DNA of 64,000 nt from Acidobacteriaceae bacterium (GTDB lineage: Bacteria > Acidobacteriota > Terriglobia > Terriglobales > Acidobacteriaceae). The stretch covers positions 1-64,000 of the forward strand of contig PLXE01000094.1 of NCBI GenBank assembly GCA_003151335.1. The letters are read 5' to 3'. The notes beneath the pieces are model-generated. The model did no database searches. It was given only the letters and a program-made list of their open reading frames with translations, and had not been told where the DNA came from. Within the stretch, counting starts at the first letter, position 1, and every line of letters begins with the position of its first letter. The position numbers and the translations under genes were made by a program. Positions 19,853 to 64,000 of the stretch are shown piece by piece.

Positions 19853-21243
19853 TCCCAGGGAGCGAATACGTCATAGAGATCACCTACATCGTCGCTGCCG
19901 TCCTCTTCATCCTCGCGTTGAAGTGGTTGAGTTCGCCAGTCACCGCGCGGCGCGGCGTTTGGGCGGGCGAAGCGGGAATGGTGTTGGCGGTTGCCGGTAC
20001 GCTTCTGTATCACGGCATCGTGGACTACAAGTGGCTCGCGGTTGGGCTGGTCCTGGGCGCGATCATTGGCGTCCCGCTTGGCAACGTCGGGATGACTGCC
20101 GTCCCGCAGCGAACTGCATTGAGCCATGCCTTCGGCGCGCTTTGCGTAACCCTGGTGGGAACCGCGGAGTTCTACCTGCGGGCCCCTAATGTTCCGCCGT
20201 TCATGATGTCGGTGCTTTCGCTGGAAGTCATCCTCGGCGGTCTCACCGTTACCGGCAGCTTGATGGCGGCAGGCAAGTTGCAGGAAATCTTGCCGCAGCG
20301 GCCAATCACCTATAAGGGGCAGAACTTCGTCAACCTGGCGATGCTGGCGATAGCCGTCGCCATCGCCGTTCGTCTCGTGCTGCATCCCGAGGCCATGGTC
20401 TTGTACCCGTTCATGGTGGGAATCGCGCTAGTCTTCGGCGTGATGATGATCGTCCCCATTGGCGGCGCCGACATGCCGACCGTGATCTCGCTGTTGAATT
20501 CCTACGCCGGCCTTTCCGCGGCGGCTATGGGCTTCGTTCTCAATAGCAAGCTTCTGATCGTGGCGGGCTCGCTCGATGGAGCGTCGGGCTTCATTCTCTC
20601 CGTCAACATGTCGAAGGCGATGAACCGCTCGTTCACCAATGTGCTGTTCGGAGCGTTCGGACAGGTGCAGACTTCAAGCGCTGCCGCAGTCGAGGCCCGG
20701 CCCGTACACAGTGCAACTCCGGAAGAAGCTGCCGCAATCCTCTCGGCCGCGAACAAAGTCGTAATCGTTCCAGGTTACGGCATGGCGGTGGCGCAGGCGC
20801 AGCACAAGGTCCGCGAACTGTATGACTTGTTGACCAAGAAGGGCGTGGACGTGAAATTTGGCATTCACCCGGTCGCCGGCCGCATGCCGGGGCACATGAA
20901 CGTTTTGCTGGCGGAAGCCGACATCCCCTACGACAAGTTGATGGACATGGATGAGGCCAATCCGGATTTCCCGCAGACGGATGTCGCGCTCGTGATCGGA
21001 GCCAACGACGTCACCAATCCTGCCGCGCGCAGCGACGCGGGCAGTCCAATCTACGGCATGCCGATTCTGGACGTCGACAAGGCCCGTACGGTCATGGTGA
21101 TCAAGCGCAGCATGAATCCGGGATTTGCCGGAATCGACAATCCGCTCTACTACCTCGACAACACACTTATGCTATTCGGCGATGCAAAAGCGTTTGTCGG
21201 CTCTATCGTGCGCGAGCTTAGCGGCGGAGGCGGGCATGGGTAG
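19849..21243 (+). CDS. pntB: NAD(P) transhydrogenase subunit beta
   Basis: The 464-residue beta subunit: eight or nine membrane helices (including GGADMPTVISLLNSYAGLSA) then the soluble NADP(H)-binding domain III. That domain contains VVIVPGYGMAVAQAQHKV, the FGIHPVAGRMPGHMNVLLAE block and DVALVIGANDVTNPAA. All are standard for PntB and length is normal. Confidence 0.96.
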   Translation: MIPGSEYVIEITYIVAAVLFILALKWLSSPVTARRGVWAGEAGMVLAVAGTLLYHGIVDYKWLAVGLVLGAIIGVPLGNVGMTAVPQRTALSHAFGALCVTLVGTAEFYLRAPNVPPFMMSVLSLEVILGGLTVTGSLMAAGKLQEILPQRPITYKGQNFVNLAMLAIAVAIAVRLVLHPEAMVLYPFMVGIALVFGVMMIVPIGGADMPTVISLLNSYAGLSAAAMGFVLNSKLLIVAGSLDGASGFILSVNMSKAMNRSFTNVLFGAFGQVQTSSAAAVEARPVHSATPEEAAAILSAANKVVIVPGYGMAVAQAQHKVRELYDLLTKKGVDVKFGIHPVAGRMPGHMNVLLAEADIPYDKLMDMDEANPDFPQTDVALVIGANDVTNPAARSDAGSPIYGMPILDVDKARTVMVIKRSMNPGFAGIDNPLYYLDNTLMLFGDAKAFVGSIVRELSGGGGHG

Positions 21244-21294
21244 CGGCGCGGAACTTCGCGGCCAGGTGTAACGTATTTAGAGAGAGGAGGAGTT

Positions 21295-21498
21295 ATGTTG
21301 ACCTTCCTTCTGTGGTGCATCTTATTGTTCTTTTGCTGGCCCTTGGCGCTGCTCGTCCTGATCCTTTACCCGTTGGTATGGTTGTTACTGTTGCCGTTCC
21401 GGCTCCTGGGATTTGCCGTCGAGGGAGTGCTGGAATTGTTGAAGGCCATCATCCTGCTTCCAGCGCGCGTATTGCGCGGACCGCGCCGCGCCTGGTAA
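21295..21498 (+). CDS. Small hydrophobic membrane protein
   Basis: 67 residues, almost entirely Leu/Ile/Val/Trp/Phe, with two likely membrane segments (residues 3-24 and 26-40) and a basic C-terminus (LRGPRRAW). AGAGAGGAGGAG precedes the ATG at a good distance and a strong terminator follows, so it is a real gene and the last of the pnt transcription unit, 50 bases after pntB. I do not recognise the family. A role next to the transhydrogenase is possible but only inferred from position. Confidence 0.75.
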   Translation: MLTFLLWCILLFFCWPLALLVLILYPLVWLLLLPFRLLGFAVEGVLELLKAIILLPARVLRGPRRAW

Positions 21499-21534
21499 CA
21501 ATCGATCTTCCCTCGCACATACCTCAAATGGAAT

Positions 21535-21563
21535 AAACCCGGAGCTCCCCCAACTCCGGGTTT
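21535..21563 (+). terminator. Rho-independent terminator of the pnt operon
   Basis: A perfect 10-bp stem AAACCCGGAG/CTCCGGGTTT with a 9-base loop, running into TTTCTTCATT. It lies 37 bases after the small membrane protein stop. Confidence 0.88.
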
Positions 21564-22022
21564 CTTCATTGCTGCTCCTACTTCCTTGCAACGAAATGGC
21601 GCTTTGGGCGCGTCGGGAAGACCGTTGCCCGCATCTTCACTTCTTGCTTCAGCTTCGACTCGGCAAGCGCGATGCCGTAGGAGCTGTCACCGCACCAGAT
21701 TTGGCTCAGGAAGTACCGGGTCGGCAAATTGAACTGGTTTACAGCGGCGCCGTAGCCCGATCTTGCGGCCCGAAGCTTGCTGCGATGCATTGAGATATTG
21801 CAAGCTTGATGCCAACCAGGGCGGGCCTCGGACGGTTCTCCTTCCCTCTTGTTTCCAGCGGCTTGCATTTGCGGAGAATCACGCACGCATTGCCGGTCGT
21901 CGCATTTGGCAGCTTGGCAATATCCGAATGGATAGGTGCGGCTATCCATTGCGTTAGTCGGCGTGATTTTCGTTCCGTGGATTCGCCAAGACTGGGCTAA
22001 ACTAACAGCCCGGAGGCAGTCC
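21564..22022. other. Gene-poor gap upstream of the FHA regulator
   Basis: About 460 bases with no recognisable gene. A minus-strand frame ending near 21578 has a faintly protein-like last 45 residues, but its remainder is arginine/serine-rich noise and overlaps the regulator, so I read it as possible remnant sequence at most. The ribosome site CCCGGAGGCAG at the right edge belongs to the next gene. Confidence 0.4.
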
Positions 22023-29300: not shown

Positions 29301-30560
29301 ATGGATATTGCCCGTCCTGAATTGAAGCGTCAAAAGCGCCGCCGGCAAATTCTGTGGGCCAGTGTTGCGGTTGCGGTTTTGATCGGCGTCACTGTCGGCA
29401 TCTCGCGGCTGAAGCCTGCCTCCCCGACCGTTGATCGCAGCACCATTTGGACCGACACCGTGAAGCGGGGTTCCATGCTCCGGCAAGTGCGCGGTCTGGG
29501 CACTCTGATCCCCAGTCATGAGGATGTCCGACAAATTCCCGCCGAGACCGAAGCGACGGTCATCCGAATCGTCAAACTTCCCGGCTCGCTAGTGGAGCCC
29601 GACACCGTCCTGGTGGAGATGAGCAATCCTCAACTCGAGCAGGAGGCGCTGGACGCACAGCTGCAGGTGAAGGCGGCCGAAGCCGAGTACCAGAGCCTGA
29701 AGGTAAAGCTCGACAGCGACCTGATGACGCAAAAAGCCGGAGCTGCAACGGTCAACGCCGACTATGCCGAGGCGCAGCGTCAGGCGCAAACCGATAAAGC
29801 GCTCTATGATCTTGGCGTAATTTCCGGTTTGGCCGCCAAGGCTTCCGCGGGCAAGGCCCAGGAACTGGTCACACGCAATGACATCGAAGATCAGCGCTTA
29901 CAGATTAATCAGAAGGCCATCGCTTCCCAGTTGGCCGTGCAACAAGCCAAGGTGGAACAAATGCGCGCCCTGGCCGACCTCAAGCAGAAACAGATGCAGC
30001 GCCTGAAAGTTCAAGCCGGGGTTGCGGGCGTCCTGGTGGATTTGCCGTTGCAGGTCGGTCAGCACGTGCTACCGGGAGCCGAGCTGGCAAGGATTGTGCA
30101 ACCGAACCACCTTATGGCTGAGCTGAAGATTCCGGAGACGCAGGCGCGTGATGTCCAGATCGGCGAGCCCGCATCGGTGGATACCCACAACGGGGTGATA
30201 CCCGGTGAAGTAAGCCGCGTCGATCCCGGCGTGCAGAATGGCACAGTAACGGTCGATGTGAAGTTGACTGGCGAATTACCCAAAGGTGCGCGGCCCGATC
30301 TGAGCGTGGATGGCACCATCGACCTGGAGCGACTGGAGAACGTGCTCTACGTCGGGCGTCCGGCTTTCGGTCAGGAAACCAGTACGGTTTCCATGTTCAA
30401 GCTTGATCCCGACGGCAAGGCAGCGACGCGGGTGCAGGTGAAGACCGGGCGCGCCTCGGTGAACCTGATTCAAATCAATTCCGGACTCCGCCAGGGCGAT
30501 ACCGTCATTCTTTCCGATATGTCGCGGTGGGACAACACCGACCGCGTGCGGCTGGAGTAG
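29301..30560 (+). CDS. HlyD/MacA-type periplasmic adaptor of an ABC exporter
   Basis: 419 residues: a membrane anchor near residues 14-35 (ILWASVAVAVLIGVTVG), a biotinyl-lipoyl-like half (ETEATVIRIVKLPGSLVEP), a long coiled coil (about 110-240, rich in Ala/Gln/Lys), the second lipoyl half (VLVDLPLQVGQHVLPGAELA) and beta-barrel domains (ELKIPETQARDVQIGEPA). Such proteins bridge an inner-membrane transporter and a TolC channel. Genes for two ABC ATPases and a TolC-like protein follow in the same direction, so they probably act together. Confidence 0.9.
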   Translation: MDIARPELKRQKRRRQILWASVAVAVLIGVTVGISRLKPASPTVDRSTIWTDTVKRGSMLRQVRGLGTLIPSHEDVRQIPAETEATVIRIVKLPGSLVEPDTVLVEMSNPQLEQEALDAQLQVKAAEAEYQSLKVKLDSDLMTQKAGAATVNADYAEAQRQAQTDKALYDLGVISGLAAKASAGKAQELVTRNDIEDQRLQINQKAIASQLAVQQAKVEQMRALADLKQKQMQRLKVQAGVAGVLVDLPLQVGQHVLPGAELARIVQPNHLMAELKIPETQARDVQIGEPASVDTHNGVIPGEVSRVDPGVQNGTVTVDVKLTGELPKGARPDLSVDGTIDLERLENVLYVGRPAFGQETSTVSMFKLDPDGKAATRVQVKTGRASVNLIQINSGLRQGDTVILSDMSRWDNTDRVRLE

Positions 30561-30719: not shown

Positions 30720-31442
30720 ATGAGCGATGCAGCAACTCCGCTAATTGAGATTGAAAATCTCACCAAGGTTTTTTACACCGATGAAGTCGAGACCCACGCC
30801 CTGGCTGGGGTTCATCTCATGGTGCGCAAAGGCGAGTATGTCGCCATGTCCGGGCCCTCGGGCTGCGGCAAGTCAACCTTGCTCTCCATTATCGGGCTGC
30901 TCGACACCCCGACTGCCGGCGACTACAAACTGAACGGGCAGCCGGTCGCGAACCTGGATTTCGCCGATCGCTCGCGTATTCGCAATCGCGAAATCGGATT
31001 CATCTTCCAGAGCTTTAACCTCATCGGCGATCTCACGGTGTATGAGAACGTCGAGCTGCCGTTGACCTATCGCGACGGCATGCCCGCGGCCGAGCGCAAA
31101 CGCCGGGTGGTGGAATCGCTGGAACGCGTCGGCATGGCCCACCGGCTGCGGCATTATCCCTCGCAATTGTCTGGCGGTCAGCAGCAGCGTGTCGCGGTGG
31201 CAAGAGCGCTGGCCGGTTCACCTTCCATCCTGCTGGCCGACGAGCCTACCGGGAACCTCGACTCGCGTAATGGCGAAGCGGTGATGGAGTTGCTGCAAAA
31301 GCTCCATCGCGAAGGCGCCACCATTTGCATGGTGACCCACGATCCGCGTTTCGCCGCGCATGCGGAGCGCGAAATCCACTTGTTTGACGGCAAGGTTGTC
31401 GCCGAGGAAGAGTTACGCAGACTAATGCAGGAGACGCAGTAA
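30720..31442 (+). CDS. ABC transporter ATP-binding protein, MacB/LolD type (canonical)
   Basis: 240 residues with all ATPase motifs intact: Walker A GPSGCGKSTLL, Q-loop FIFQSFNLIGDLT, signature LSGGQQQRVAVARAL, Walker B/D-loop ILLADEPTGNLDS and switch histidine MVTHDP. It resembles the ATPase of LolCDE and of split MacB-like exporters. It lies downstream of the adaptor and upstream of a second, partly degenerate ATPase. No permease gene is adjacent. Confidence 0.93.
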   Translation: MSDAATPLIEIENLTKVFYTDEVETHALAGVHLMVRKGEYVAMSGPSGCGKSTLLSIIGLLDTPTAGDYKLNGQPVANLDFADRSRIRNREIGFIFQSFNLIGDLTVYENVELPLTYRDGMPAAERKRRVVESLERVGMAHRLRHYPSQLSGGQQQRVAVARALAGSPSILLADEPTGNLDSRNGEAVMELLQKLHREGATICMVTHDPRFAAHAEREIHLFDGKVVAEEELRRLMQETQ

Positions 31443-60915: not shown

Positions 60916-61065
60916 GTTCTCATGTGCGACGATCTGGCGGTAGACAAATCGAAGTTCGGCTGACCTGTCTGTACTACCACAATAGTGGTATAAGTATCTG
61001 TCCCCTAAGTTTACATAAAGCTGATGATGTATAGCACTTAAAGTCTTATTGAACCCAATTCGGGC

Positions 61066-61449
61066 TCATGCAAGTCGCTGCAGCCAGCCGTTGCTAAAAT
61101 AGGTGACGCTGGCGCTTAACGTACCGCGATCGCCCAGCCCACCCGAGGGACGCAGGATGAACTCCGGGTGCGAAGCCAGAAAATCGCTTACGGCCTGCGC
61201 CGGGTTATCGGTCAACCATGAAGCTTGGCCGCCAGGCACATCCGCGAGCTCGCGCATGATGCCATCCGCGACAACCAAATAAGAGCCGGGTGTCACCAAG
61301 GGAGCATACACTTCCAACTCTCGGGACACATGCTGGCGGGTGTGCGCCGAGTCCAGAACCACCATAACTCTGTCCCCAGACTTTCGCAGCCGTGTGACAG
61401 CGTCCATCGACTCCGATGCTATGGAAGATCCCTCCACCAAATCAATTAA
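61066..61449 (-). pseudogene. C-terminal half of a cephalosporin-hydroxylase (CmcI) family protein
   Basis: About 128 residues beginning LIDLVEGSSIASES and continuing DRVMVVLDSAHTRQHV, LEVYAPLVTPGSYLVVADG and DFLASHPEFIL, which is the second half of CmcI/rhamnosyl-O-methyltransferase-like proteins. The first half, with the SAM-binding loop, is missing; upstream in frame the sequence has no similarity. It matches, without overlap, the N-terminal half at 63678-64000. No proper ATG. Confidence 0.75.
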
Positions 61450-61734
61450 CGTTCCTAGCCAGAGCCAAGAGGGGCGAAGGGGCGTCTGACAAAAGCTGAT
61501 GGGGGAAGGCCGTGGCCAGCAGTTTGGGGACTCGCGTTGGGGCAGACGGGACCCTGGTACCGAGCCCTGGGCCCCGCCAAAGAAAAAAGAGTGCTCTCGA
61601 CTCCCTCGACGGGTATATAGTGTGGGGCTGCTGGGAGCTAAAATGGAAATTCTGGGCTTAACGTCGCTGGCGGATGACGTTCACCACCCGTGAAGAACAA
61701 GGCGCACCTGGATTCCGGCGTTGGGGGGTAGGCC
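61450..61734. other. Gap at the left edge of the inserted block
   Basis: About 285 bases with no gene. G-rich purine tracts and a TATATAG stretch (61614-61620) are present, but no -35 partner fits. It probably contains the promoter of the exported-protein gene at 61735 and the left junction of the insertion. Confidence 0.4.
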
Positions 61735-62553
61735 ATGAAGGCAGCGAAGCGAACCTGCACAATCCTGATCAGCCTCGTTGTTTTCGTTCTCCCGATGCTG
61801 GGCCAGGTTGATCGCGGCGTGATCGTCTCCCACGCAGGAAATGAGATCAGCGTTTCGATCGCTCGAACCGCACCGCTGGGCACGGTGCTCGATGAAGTTT
61901 GTCGCGAGGCGAGTGCCCAGTGTTTGGGAACACCACACGCAATGGCCGCCATGGTTCCAGCGCAGGAAGTCCATGGCGACTGGCGCCATGTGATCTCGAT
62001 TCTGCTGGAGGGCGCCGGATTTAACTACATTGCCAGTGCACCATCGGGGTCTTCTCCTGGAATGCTGCAGATTGTCGGTGCGGCATCACAGGGAAGGCCC
62101 GAGCAGCCAGCAGCCCGGTCAACGGTCGCTGCCACGGCGCCGAGTGCAGCAGTGGGGCCGTCAACGGAAAGTAGCTCCGTGGATGCTGCAACTTCCGCAG
62201 ATGCTGTATCGGCAAGCAGCTCAACTCCCCTCACTTCTGGCGCCGGAGAAGCAGGTTACTCGCAGCCATCCGGTGCCGCCGAACCGGCGACTATGGGCGG
62301 GCAACCTGGCAGGCTTCTGTTTTCGGATGGCTATGGAAACCCAATTCCGGTTTCTCAGCAGAACCTTGAGTTTCTGCTGTTTCCTGATGCTGGCGGAACC
62401 CTGATCCCGGTTGCGAGTCAAGGGTCAGCGTCATATTCGTTATTTCCAGATTCGAAGGGCAATCCTATACCGGCTTCAAACCAAGCACTGCCGTACCTGC
62501 TTTTCCCGGACGGGAATGGTCGCTTAGTCCCTGCGCAGAGGGGTGGCCACTGA
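61735..62553 (+). CDS. Exported protein with four LFPD-type C-terminal repeats
   Basis: 272 residues. A signal peptide (ILISLVVFVLPMLGQ) is followed by a short domain like the STN domain of secretins (ISVSIARTAPLGTVLDEVC, then WRHVISILLEGAGFNYIA), a Ser/Ala/Thr-rich spacer (about 105-180) and four units of 20-21 residues from 195 to the end, each starting LF(P/S)D and containing a G-x-(P/L)-(I/V)-P turn, for example LFPDSKGNPIPASNQALPYL. Cell-surface or periplasmic role likely. Not a known family to me. Confidence 0.75.
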   Translation: MKAAKRTCTILISLVVFVLPMLGQVDRGVIVSHAGNEISVSIARTAPLGTVLDEVCREASAQCLGTPHAMAAMVPAQEVHGDWRHVISILLEGAGFNYIASAPSGSSPGMLQIVGAASQGRPEQPAARSTVAATAPSAAVGPSTESSSVDAATSADAVSASSSTPLTSGAGEAGYSQPSGAAEPATMGGQPGRLLFSDGYGNPIPVSQQNLEFLLFPDAGGTLIPVASQGSASYSLFPDSKGNPIPASNQALPYLLFPDGNGRLVPAQRGGH

Positions 62554-62614
62554 AGGCTGGGACCATCCACTGTAAGAGTTCAACGGTATCAATTTCGGCG
62601 AAGGAGAAAGGGAA

Positions 62615-63433
62615 ATGAAAAAGTTAGGATTGCTCACGATCTGCTTACTGCTTATCAACTCGATGGTTTTTGCGCAAGCCAGGCCGGCCAAACAAGGCAA
62701 GGCGGGCATTAAACCCCTAAATTACGGCAGCTGTGATTCCACCGCTCCCCTGGTGAACATCATCGGCGCAGGTTTCGAGGATTTCATGCCCGTCTTTGGT
62801 GACAACTTCGTCCAGGTTAACCTGAAAGCAGGTCATTCCTACAGTGCCGAGGTGTGGGATCCACGGGGCCAGTACGCGTCCGGCGGACTCTTCTTGTATC
62901 TCATCACAGCGGGCTGTGCCGGTCTCGATAATTTTACCGACGTGGCGGGGATGGATCCGGACTTGACCAATGGATTCTCCGACCGGATATCGTGGGTTCA
63001 AGCGTCTGACTCCCTTGAATTCATCCACATATCGAGCTTCGATACCGTTGCCAGCCACAACTACAACATGCGGGTAGTGGACACGACTCTGAATAACTCC
63101 CGTTGGAGCACCGTGGTGGGCTTTAGTACGCATTACGGATTCCTGAACACAACCGAATGGGACATTGGGGGCACCCTGACCCTCACGGAGTCGGGTGGAA
63201 CCCAGCACGTCGTCACCTTCACAATTCCAGCCGGCGGGGAGGTTTTCGAAGTGGTTGCGGGAGATGGGAGTGGCAGCCCCGGGCTGAACTTGCCTCCGAA
63301 CTTGGCCGGATCCGCCAGCTTTGTGTTTGTGGGCGCGGCCGGGGCGATCAAAGCCGACGGTTATTTCCAGGCTGTCCAGAATGGGGTGTTCGTAATCGTG
63401 CCTACTGCGTGGGGCCCGAAGAACAATCAATAG
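62615..63433 (+). CDS. Exported beta-rich protein of unknown function
   Basis: 272 residues with a signal peptide (MKKLGLLTICLLLINSMVFA). The mature part is rich in Gly, Ser, Thr and aromatics with few charged clusters, consistent with beta-sandwich folds. AAGGAGAAAGG precedes the ATG, and a strong terminator follows. It lies 61 bases after the LFPD-repeat gene, so the two probably form an operon. No domain recognised. Confidence 0.78.
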   Translation: MKKLGLLTICLLLINSMVFAQARPAKQGKAGIKPLNYGSCDSTAPLVNIIGAGFEDFMPVFGDNFVQVNLKAGHSYSAEVWDPRGQYASGGLFLYLITAGCAGLDNFTDVAGMDPDLTNGFSDRISWVQASDSLEFIHISSFDTVASHNYNMRVVDTTLNNSRWSTVVGFSTHYGFLNTTEWDIGGTLTLTESGGTQHVVTFTIPAGGEVFEVVAGDGSGSPGLNLPPNLAGSASFVFVGAAGAIKADGYFQAVQNGVFVIVPTAWGPKNNQ

Positions 63434-63455
63434 TGATGAAAGTTTTACGGCGCGA

Positions 63456-63483
63456 GGGAGCACACGCGTGACCGTGTGCTCCC
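63456..63483 (+). terminator. Rho-independent terminator
   Basis: A perfect 11-bp stem GGGAGCACACG/CGTGTGCTCCC with a 6-base loop, then TTCCGCTTTT. It ends the two-gene exported-protein unit, 22 bases past the stop. Confidence 0.85.
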
Positions 63484-63491
63484 TTCCGCTT

Positions 63492-64000
63492 TTATGACTT
63501 GCACGCTAGAGCAAAGCCGACGGCCATCTGGTTGCATCGCCAAGACCTGCCTCTTGTCACCGGTTCACCCGAGGCGAAGCGTTCAATACCCTTCAAACGG
63601 ACCGCATTCAGCATCTGCACTATAGATGGCCACACACCCTTTCTCACTAGCAATAAATAGATGGTAGTGAAATATAAGAAATGCAGGTTTAGAGGATGTT
63701 TCCGAAGTACCTCACGCACGTCCGGCGGGATGGAAATGTCGATTCCAATAACACGGCCTTTGCCCAGAGTTCGACACAGGCTGGCGTAATAAAGTAAGGA
63801 ACCACCCTTGTAGACGCCGGTCTCAATGATCAGGTCAGGGCGTACCTGATGGATTATCTCTTGCAGTCGGACCAGGTCCTCCGGCAGTTGGAGAATAGGC
63901 TGTCCCATCCATGTAAAAGCCAGGAAATAGCCCAAGCTCCAACCTGTGCGCACCCATTGCCGGGAAAGCAGACCAAAAGCAGCCTCGGTGTACAAAGGTT
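63492..64000 (-). pseudogene. N-terminal half of a cephalosporin-hydroxylase (CmcI) family protein
   Basis: The frame is open to the window edge. It contains MGQPILQLPEDLVRLQEII, RPDLIIETGVYKGGSLLYYA (SAM-type glycine motif) and GKGRVIGIDISIPPDVREVL, followed by RKHPLNLH at 63681. That is the first half of CmcI-like proteins. After 63681 the similarity ends abruptly and about 62 unrelated residues follow to a stop at 63492. The missing half lies at 61066-61449. The true start is outside the window. Confidence 0.75.

Follow-up and report, generated by a model that had tools for sequence, protein, structure and literature searches.

A cmcI-family pseudogene interrupted by a two-gene transcription unit with an IS1380-family right end in an Acidobacteriaceae genome

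The window analyzed here, a 64,000-nucleotide stretch from a soil bacterium of the Acidobacteriaceae, carries a cmcI-family methyltransferase gene that has been split once, between the equivalents of HPLN and (I)xLVEGSS, and is now a pseudogene. The DNA separating the two pieces is a transcription unit consisting of an IS1380-family insertion sequence (IS) reduced to its right end, two genes for exported proteins that read outward from it, and a terminator. A single cmcI gene was cut by this ∼2.23-kb unit, and we consider a causal link between the break and the relic of the IS reasonably probable.

One cmcI-family gene in two pieces

Both pieces lie on the minus strand and match the rhamnosyl O-methyltransferase/CmcI family of Pfam (RMNT_CmcI, PF04989). 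The right piece (63998 to 63678) covers profile positions 3 to 87 of 206 (E value, 4.5e−27) and the left piece (61449 to 61066) covers positions 87 to 205 (E value, 6.1e−29), with scores of 95.5 and 101.7 bits, respectively, against a curated cutoff of 23.2. The ranges are exactly complementary, well beyond what chance would give, and jointly span positions 3 to 205, although the full domain typical of the family cannot be made from the split gene. Using the profile together with an alignment of 31 homologues, the 5′ (N-terminal) part was placed at 63681 to 64000; the profile placed the 3′ (C-terminal) part, which runs from L/IDLVEGSS to the stop codon, at 61066 to 61449. The reading frame is therefore interrupted at 63681/61449. 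The last clearly homologous residues of the 5′ part are HPLN (63687 to 63698), and the LH that follows at the break (63681 to 63686) may belong to either the gene or the insert. The contig does not stop where the window does; the gene continues past the window to a start at contig base 64073.

A search of 396 genomes from across the phylum identified 31 uninterrupted cmcI homologues. In TBLASTN, the joined protein aligned at near full length with ten of these intact homologues, at 46 to 52% identity. The identities of the two halves to the 31 homologues co-vary (Spearman, 0.45). When each half was placed in a tree of its own, both fell inside or beside the same well-supported subfamily clade. 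No second copy of cmcI was found in the genome itself at an E value of ≤0.001. Given the complementary Pfam ranges, the co-varying identity, the common clade, and the lack of another copy, the two halves represent one gene, in agreement with an earlier sequence-only reading, which had proposed a single CmcI-family gene split by ∼2.2 kb. Two different paralogues, the circumstance which that reading named as contradicting it, were rejected as the source of the halves, since there is no other genomic copy and one clade accounts for both. The uninterrupted form of the gene that it proposed to look for in relatives exists in the 31 homologues, with none among close orthologues.

Among the genome contigs scanned, a related locus was found only in the sister species G007, where the flanking gene order (dnaG, osmC, the cmcI 5′ part, and tyrS) is the same at 93% identity. 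G007 lacks the DNA corresponding to window positions 60970 to 63781, and its remaining piece of cmcI contains a stop codon. In G008 and G002, the stretch from 60963 to ∼64733, comprising the whole of cmcI-osmC, is missing. All three genomes lack the relevant stretch, and no empty site was present in a close relative; an intact close orthologue of cmcI was not found, and the exact empty site and the timing of the insertion were not seen among the relatives examined. Because the region missing from G007 is the very one at issue, this genome does not tell whether the insert predates the split. With the gene broken in two species and absent from the same place in others, cmcI is dispensable here and its loss is tolerated.

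The left breakpoints of the two indels nearly coincide (60963 in G008 and G002; 60970 in G007), which suggests that window positions 60963 to 60970 form a fragile site. Just past the window, beside cmcI, contig bases ∼64114 to 64620 (minus strand) hold a gene of the OsmC family (PF02566) that is crossed by a TGA codon in frame. This codon (ALGG-TGA-MLGTF) occupies the usual place of a cysteine, is kept in G007, and is followed by a hairpin; the gene probably encodes a selenocysteine-containing OsmC protein.

The IS1380 right end and the inserted genes

From left to right, the insert comprises the IS1380 right end, ∼80 bases, gene 1, gene 2, the terminator, and a unique stretch of ∼190 bases. 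The right-end remnant (61459 to 61655, plus strand), delimited using matches within the genome and a copy on contig C70, represents the last ∼197 bp of the element, that is, just the part past the transposase stop codon, and its outer terminus, GGAAATTCTGG, points toward the inserted genes. It includes the conserved sequence TATATAGTGTGG, common to the right-end fragments of this genome, and the 90-bp end of the element includes the motif TATATAGT. The right terminal inverted repeat, GGAGCTAAAATGGAAATTCTGG (61634 to 61655), obtained the top score in the window with a terminal-repeat profile that was built partly from this copy. The right-end fragment occurs at 16 places in the genome, 15 of them besides 61459 to 61655, and several contigs terminate in copies of the element. 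The copy on C70 is ∼91% identical to the remnant and continues into an intact transposase (DDE_Tnp_1_4, PF13701; E value, 7.5e−119); a right end joined to a full-length transposase frame is found on both C70 and C54. While the remnant resembles the right end of this transposase-bearing copy from the same genome, it differs from a full IS1380-family element in consisting of the right end alone, with the DDE_Tnp_1_4 transposase and the left end both absent. The sequence-only reading had reported no transposase or integrase in the insert, which is correct for its genes, but the IS1380 remnant was overlooked.

Elsewhere, the left end of the element begins with CCCACATTTCC, as defined by loci with a common first base. 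At the left junction of the window copy, the left terminal inverted repeat (CCCACATTTCCTTTTTGA...) had no match (score, −9.8). The remnant is separated from cmcI by the 9 bases CGTTCCTAG, and a left end concealed within these bases was rejected, with a score far below background. IS-end-like sequences at 29815, 11537, and 36241 of the window were attributed to chance, as the profile does not find them. A 7-bp direct repeat, TTAACGT, visible in the sequence at 61446 to 61452 and 61658 to 61664, flanks the IS1380 remnant itself; 1% of random window pairs share 7 bp, and no left IS end adjoins the repeat. The sequences adjoining other left and right ends of the element are often YTAR or TTAA-like.

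The two plus-strand genes and the terminator that the sequence-only reading placed between the halves were recovered. Genes 1 (61735 to 62553) and 2 (62615 to 63433) each encode 272 amino acids with an N terminus that by eye is signal-peptide-like, and gene 2 is followed on the same strand by an intrinsic terminator (63454 to 63485), a strong hairpin with a 13-pair stem. The spacer from there to the right junction (63486 to 63680) is unique DNA in which no IS end or target duplication was found. Neither gene could be assigned to a family in Pfam, NCBIfam, or PHROGs, and no convincing relative with a known structure was found for either; judged purely by eye, the N-terminal part of gene 1 is possibly secretin/STN-like. 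Both genes are single copy in the genome, which holds no second copy as a possible donor. Relatives of gene 1 were limited to weak matches in other families of the class. Those of gene 2 were confined to the same genus: G006 has one at 38% identity, and the match in G005 is weak and partial, with a stop codon in its frame; no IS end was present near either relative in the surrounding stretches examined. Phage or plasmid cargo was rejected, as neither gene had a match in plasmids, viral contigs, or PHROGs.

Junctions and origin of the insert

The halves do not join as neatly as the sequence-only reading held. The spacing from HPLN to VEG is 5 residues in 31 of 31 homologues and 6 in the join at 63681/61449. 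The join is one codon too long, so the insert includes some of the bases at one edge or at both, and if the gene had its usual length, the true breakpoints would differ from 63681/61449 by one codon in sum. On our own inspection, no frame of three bases gave equal copies at both insert edges. A target duplication, for which the reading had proposed to search the junctions, is lacking across the whole ∼2.2-kb insert, the longest word common to the outer flanks being 4 bp, which is at chance level. A complete pair of IS ends bounding the 2.2 kb was likewise not found. In the absence of both a full pair of ends and a matching target duplication, the edges do not demonstrate the IS-plus-cargo insert to be a defined transposable unit. 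The same reading had offered two origins, recombination that brought in cargo and a non-autonomous element bearing passenger genes; insertion of passenger genes is upheld, whereas the IS end had escaped it and no defined element emerges.

The IS1380 right end starts ≤10 bp from the left cmcI break. By our own arithmetic, based on 16 copies in 4.65 Mb, the chance of a relic lying so near the break is ∼1e−4, and from this proximity we infer a causal link between the two. An IS-linked event is the favored source of the insert, since one end of a known mobile element is part of it. A segment edged by an IS1380 end would have entered cmcI, whether as an IS1380-linked unit whose IS body was lost afterwards or through illegitimate recombination of a fragment already ending in the relic. 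Judging from the other copies, the IS1380 end probably supplies the promoter of the two inserted genes. Counting against this explanation are the missing left inverted repeat beside cmcI and the lack of a shared outer duplication, of a donor copy, and of an intact close orthologue.

The position of the TTAACGT repeat, which brackets the IS remnant and not the whole insert, would also be expected if two independent steps had occurred, whereby the genes entered cmcI by illegitimate recombination and IS1380 later hit the TTAA at the left junction and lost its body. The TTAA-like sequences next to other IS ends are consistent with such a course, but the IS would have had to hit a site at most a few bases away from an existing junction, and with the left IS end missing the repeat may be due to chance; we regard this order of events as rather unlikely. 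Somewhat less likely again is one-ended transposition resembling that of ISEcp1/ISEc9, in which an IS1380 copy paired its left end with a substitute right end past the genes, brought the genes into cmcI while duplicating 4 to 5 bp, and afterwards had its left end and transposase deleted. ISEc9, a member of the IS1380 family, promotes one-ended transposition, and duplications in the family are 4 to 5 bp (PMC12116815). The topology of the insert fits, with the IS at one edge, its right end facing the genes, the genes pointing away, and TTAA at the left edge; genes beyond the right end and plausible outward expression are features shared with ISEcp1/ISEc9 units. Unlike those units, the insert has no left end, demonstrated target duplication, convincing substitute right end, or donor copy. 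Its right edge offers neither a matching duplication nor a convincing IS-end-like sequence (0.9 bits for the best candidate for a substitute right end, a score expected 0.07 times across 41 positions, although this candidate ends inside cmcI at 63687), and the later deletion would have had to end precisely at the border of cmcI.

A dispersed repeat forms the left edge, and several contigs ending in IS1380 copies could raise the suspicion that unrelated DNA was joined through a repeated IS end during assembly. However, both outer flanks are syntenic with G007, the right cmcI junction sits in unique DNA, and the window copy shares only 91% identity with its nearest counterpart. Misassembly of the locus is thus unlikely given the shared flanking gene order and the unique right junction, and we consider such an artifact very improbable. 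An insertion linked to a relic of IS1380, and not an intact element, made the cmcI pseudogene; the IS may have served as carrier or recombination point or may have come second.

IS1380 right ends upstream of other genes

Counting only right-end fragments without a full transposase and not cut by a contig end (n = 12), a same-strand open reading frame (≥110 codons) starts within 100 bp after the fragment in 10 cases, at distances of 9 to 80 bp. Such a gene start follows 23% of random intergenic positions and strands in the window, and under this crude null the probability of 10 of 12 is ∼2e−5. Solitary left ends are fewer, with two identified. Pfam confirmed 4 of the 10 genes, in a check that took in only part of the other six: a dicarboxylate symporter (on contig C49), a pro-kumamolisin, a major facilitator superfamily transporter (on C13), and a protein with a metallo-β-lactamase fold. 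A riboswitch or RNA leader within the repeat was rejected, with no Rfam family above threshold and no compensatory changes in 13 copies. As the fragments share TATATAGTGTGG, precede genes, and show no covarying RNA fold, the IS1380 right end is probably an outward promoter.

A profile search of 1.53 Mb of G008 identified six copies of the IS1380 end. The symporter copy is fully syntenic (94% identity over 3.2 kb), and for the homologue of the gene on C14, similarity ends before the element. For the copies on C26 and C47, the element and the adjacent gene start are common to both genomes and the upstream flanks differ; in these cases, end-plus-gene blocks may move, or recombination may exchange the upstream DNA. 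Positions 30828 to 31829 of C26 and 9347 to 10098 of contig C20 from G008 contain the same IS end and share one low-complexity protein gene; the DNA around them (39 kb against 22 kb) shows no further homology. Between C47 and positions 19895 to 21716 of the G008 contig C20, the IS end and the start of the metallo-β-lactamase-fold gene are conserved, and a 1.28-kb neighbor lies downstream in the genome studied here and upstream in G008, a permuted order. It is a doubtful extrapolation from these cases that solitary right ends of ∼60 to 200 bp, retained immediately in front of genes, act as dispersed promoters, that blocks of end plus gene relocate between species, and that the cmcI insert is one such cassette.

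In annotation, the two cmcI halves should not be listed as two proteins. The IS1380-linked breakage of cmcI is of an ordinary kind and has left a pseudogene that is clear but likewise ordinary. Antibiotic resistance is the usual setting in which IS1380-type elements are studied; should the wider pattern hold, it would reveal how leftover IS ends become promoters in Acidobacteria, possibly carrying neighboring genes with them.
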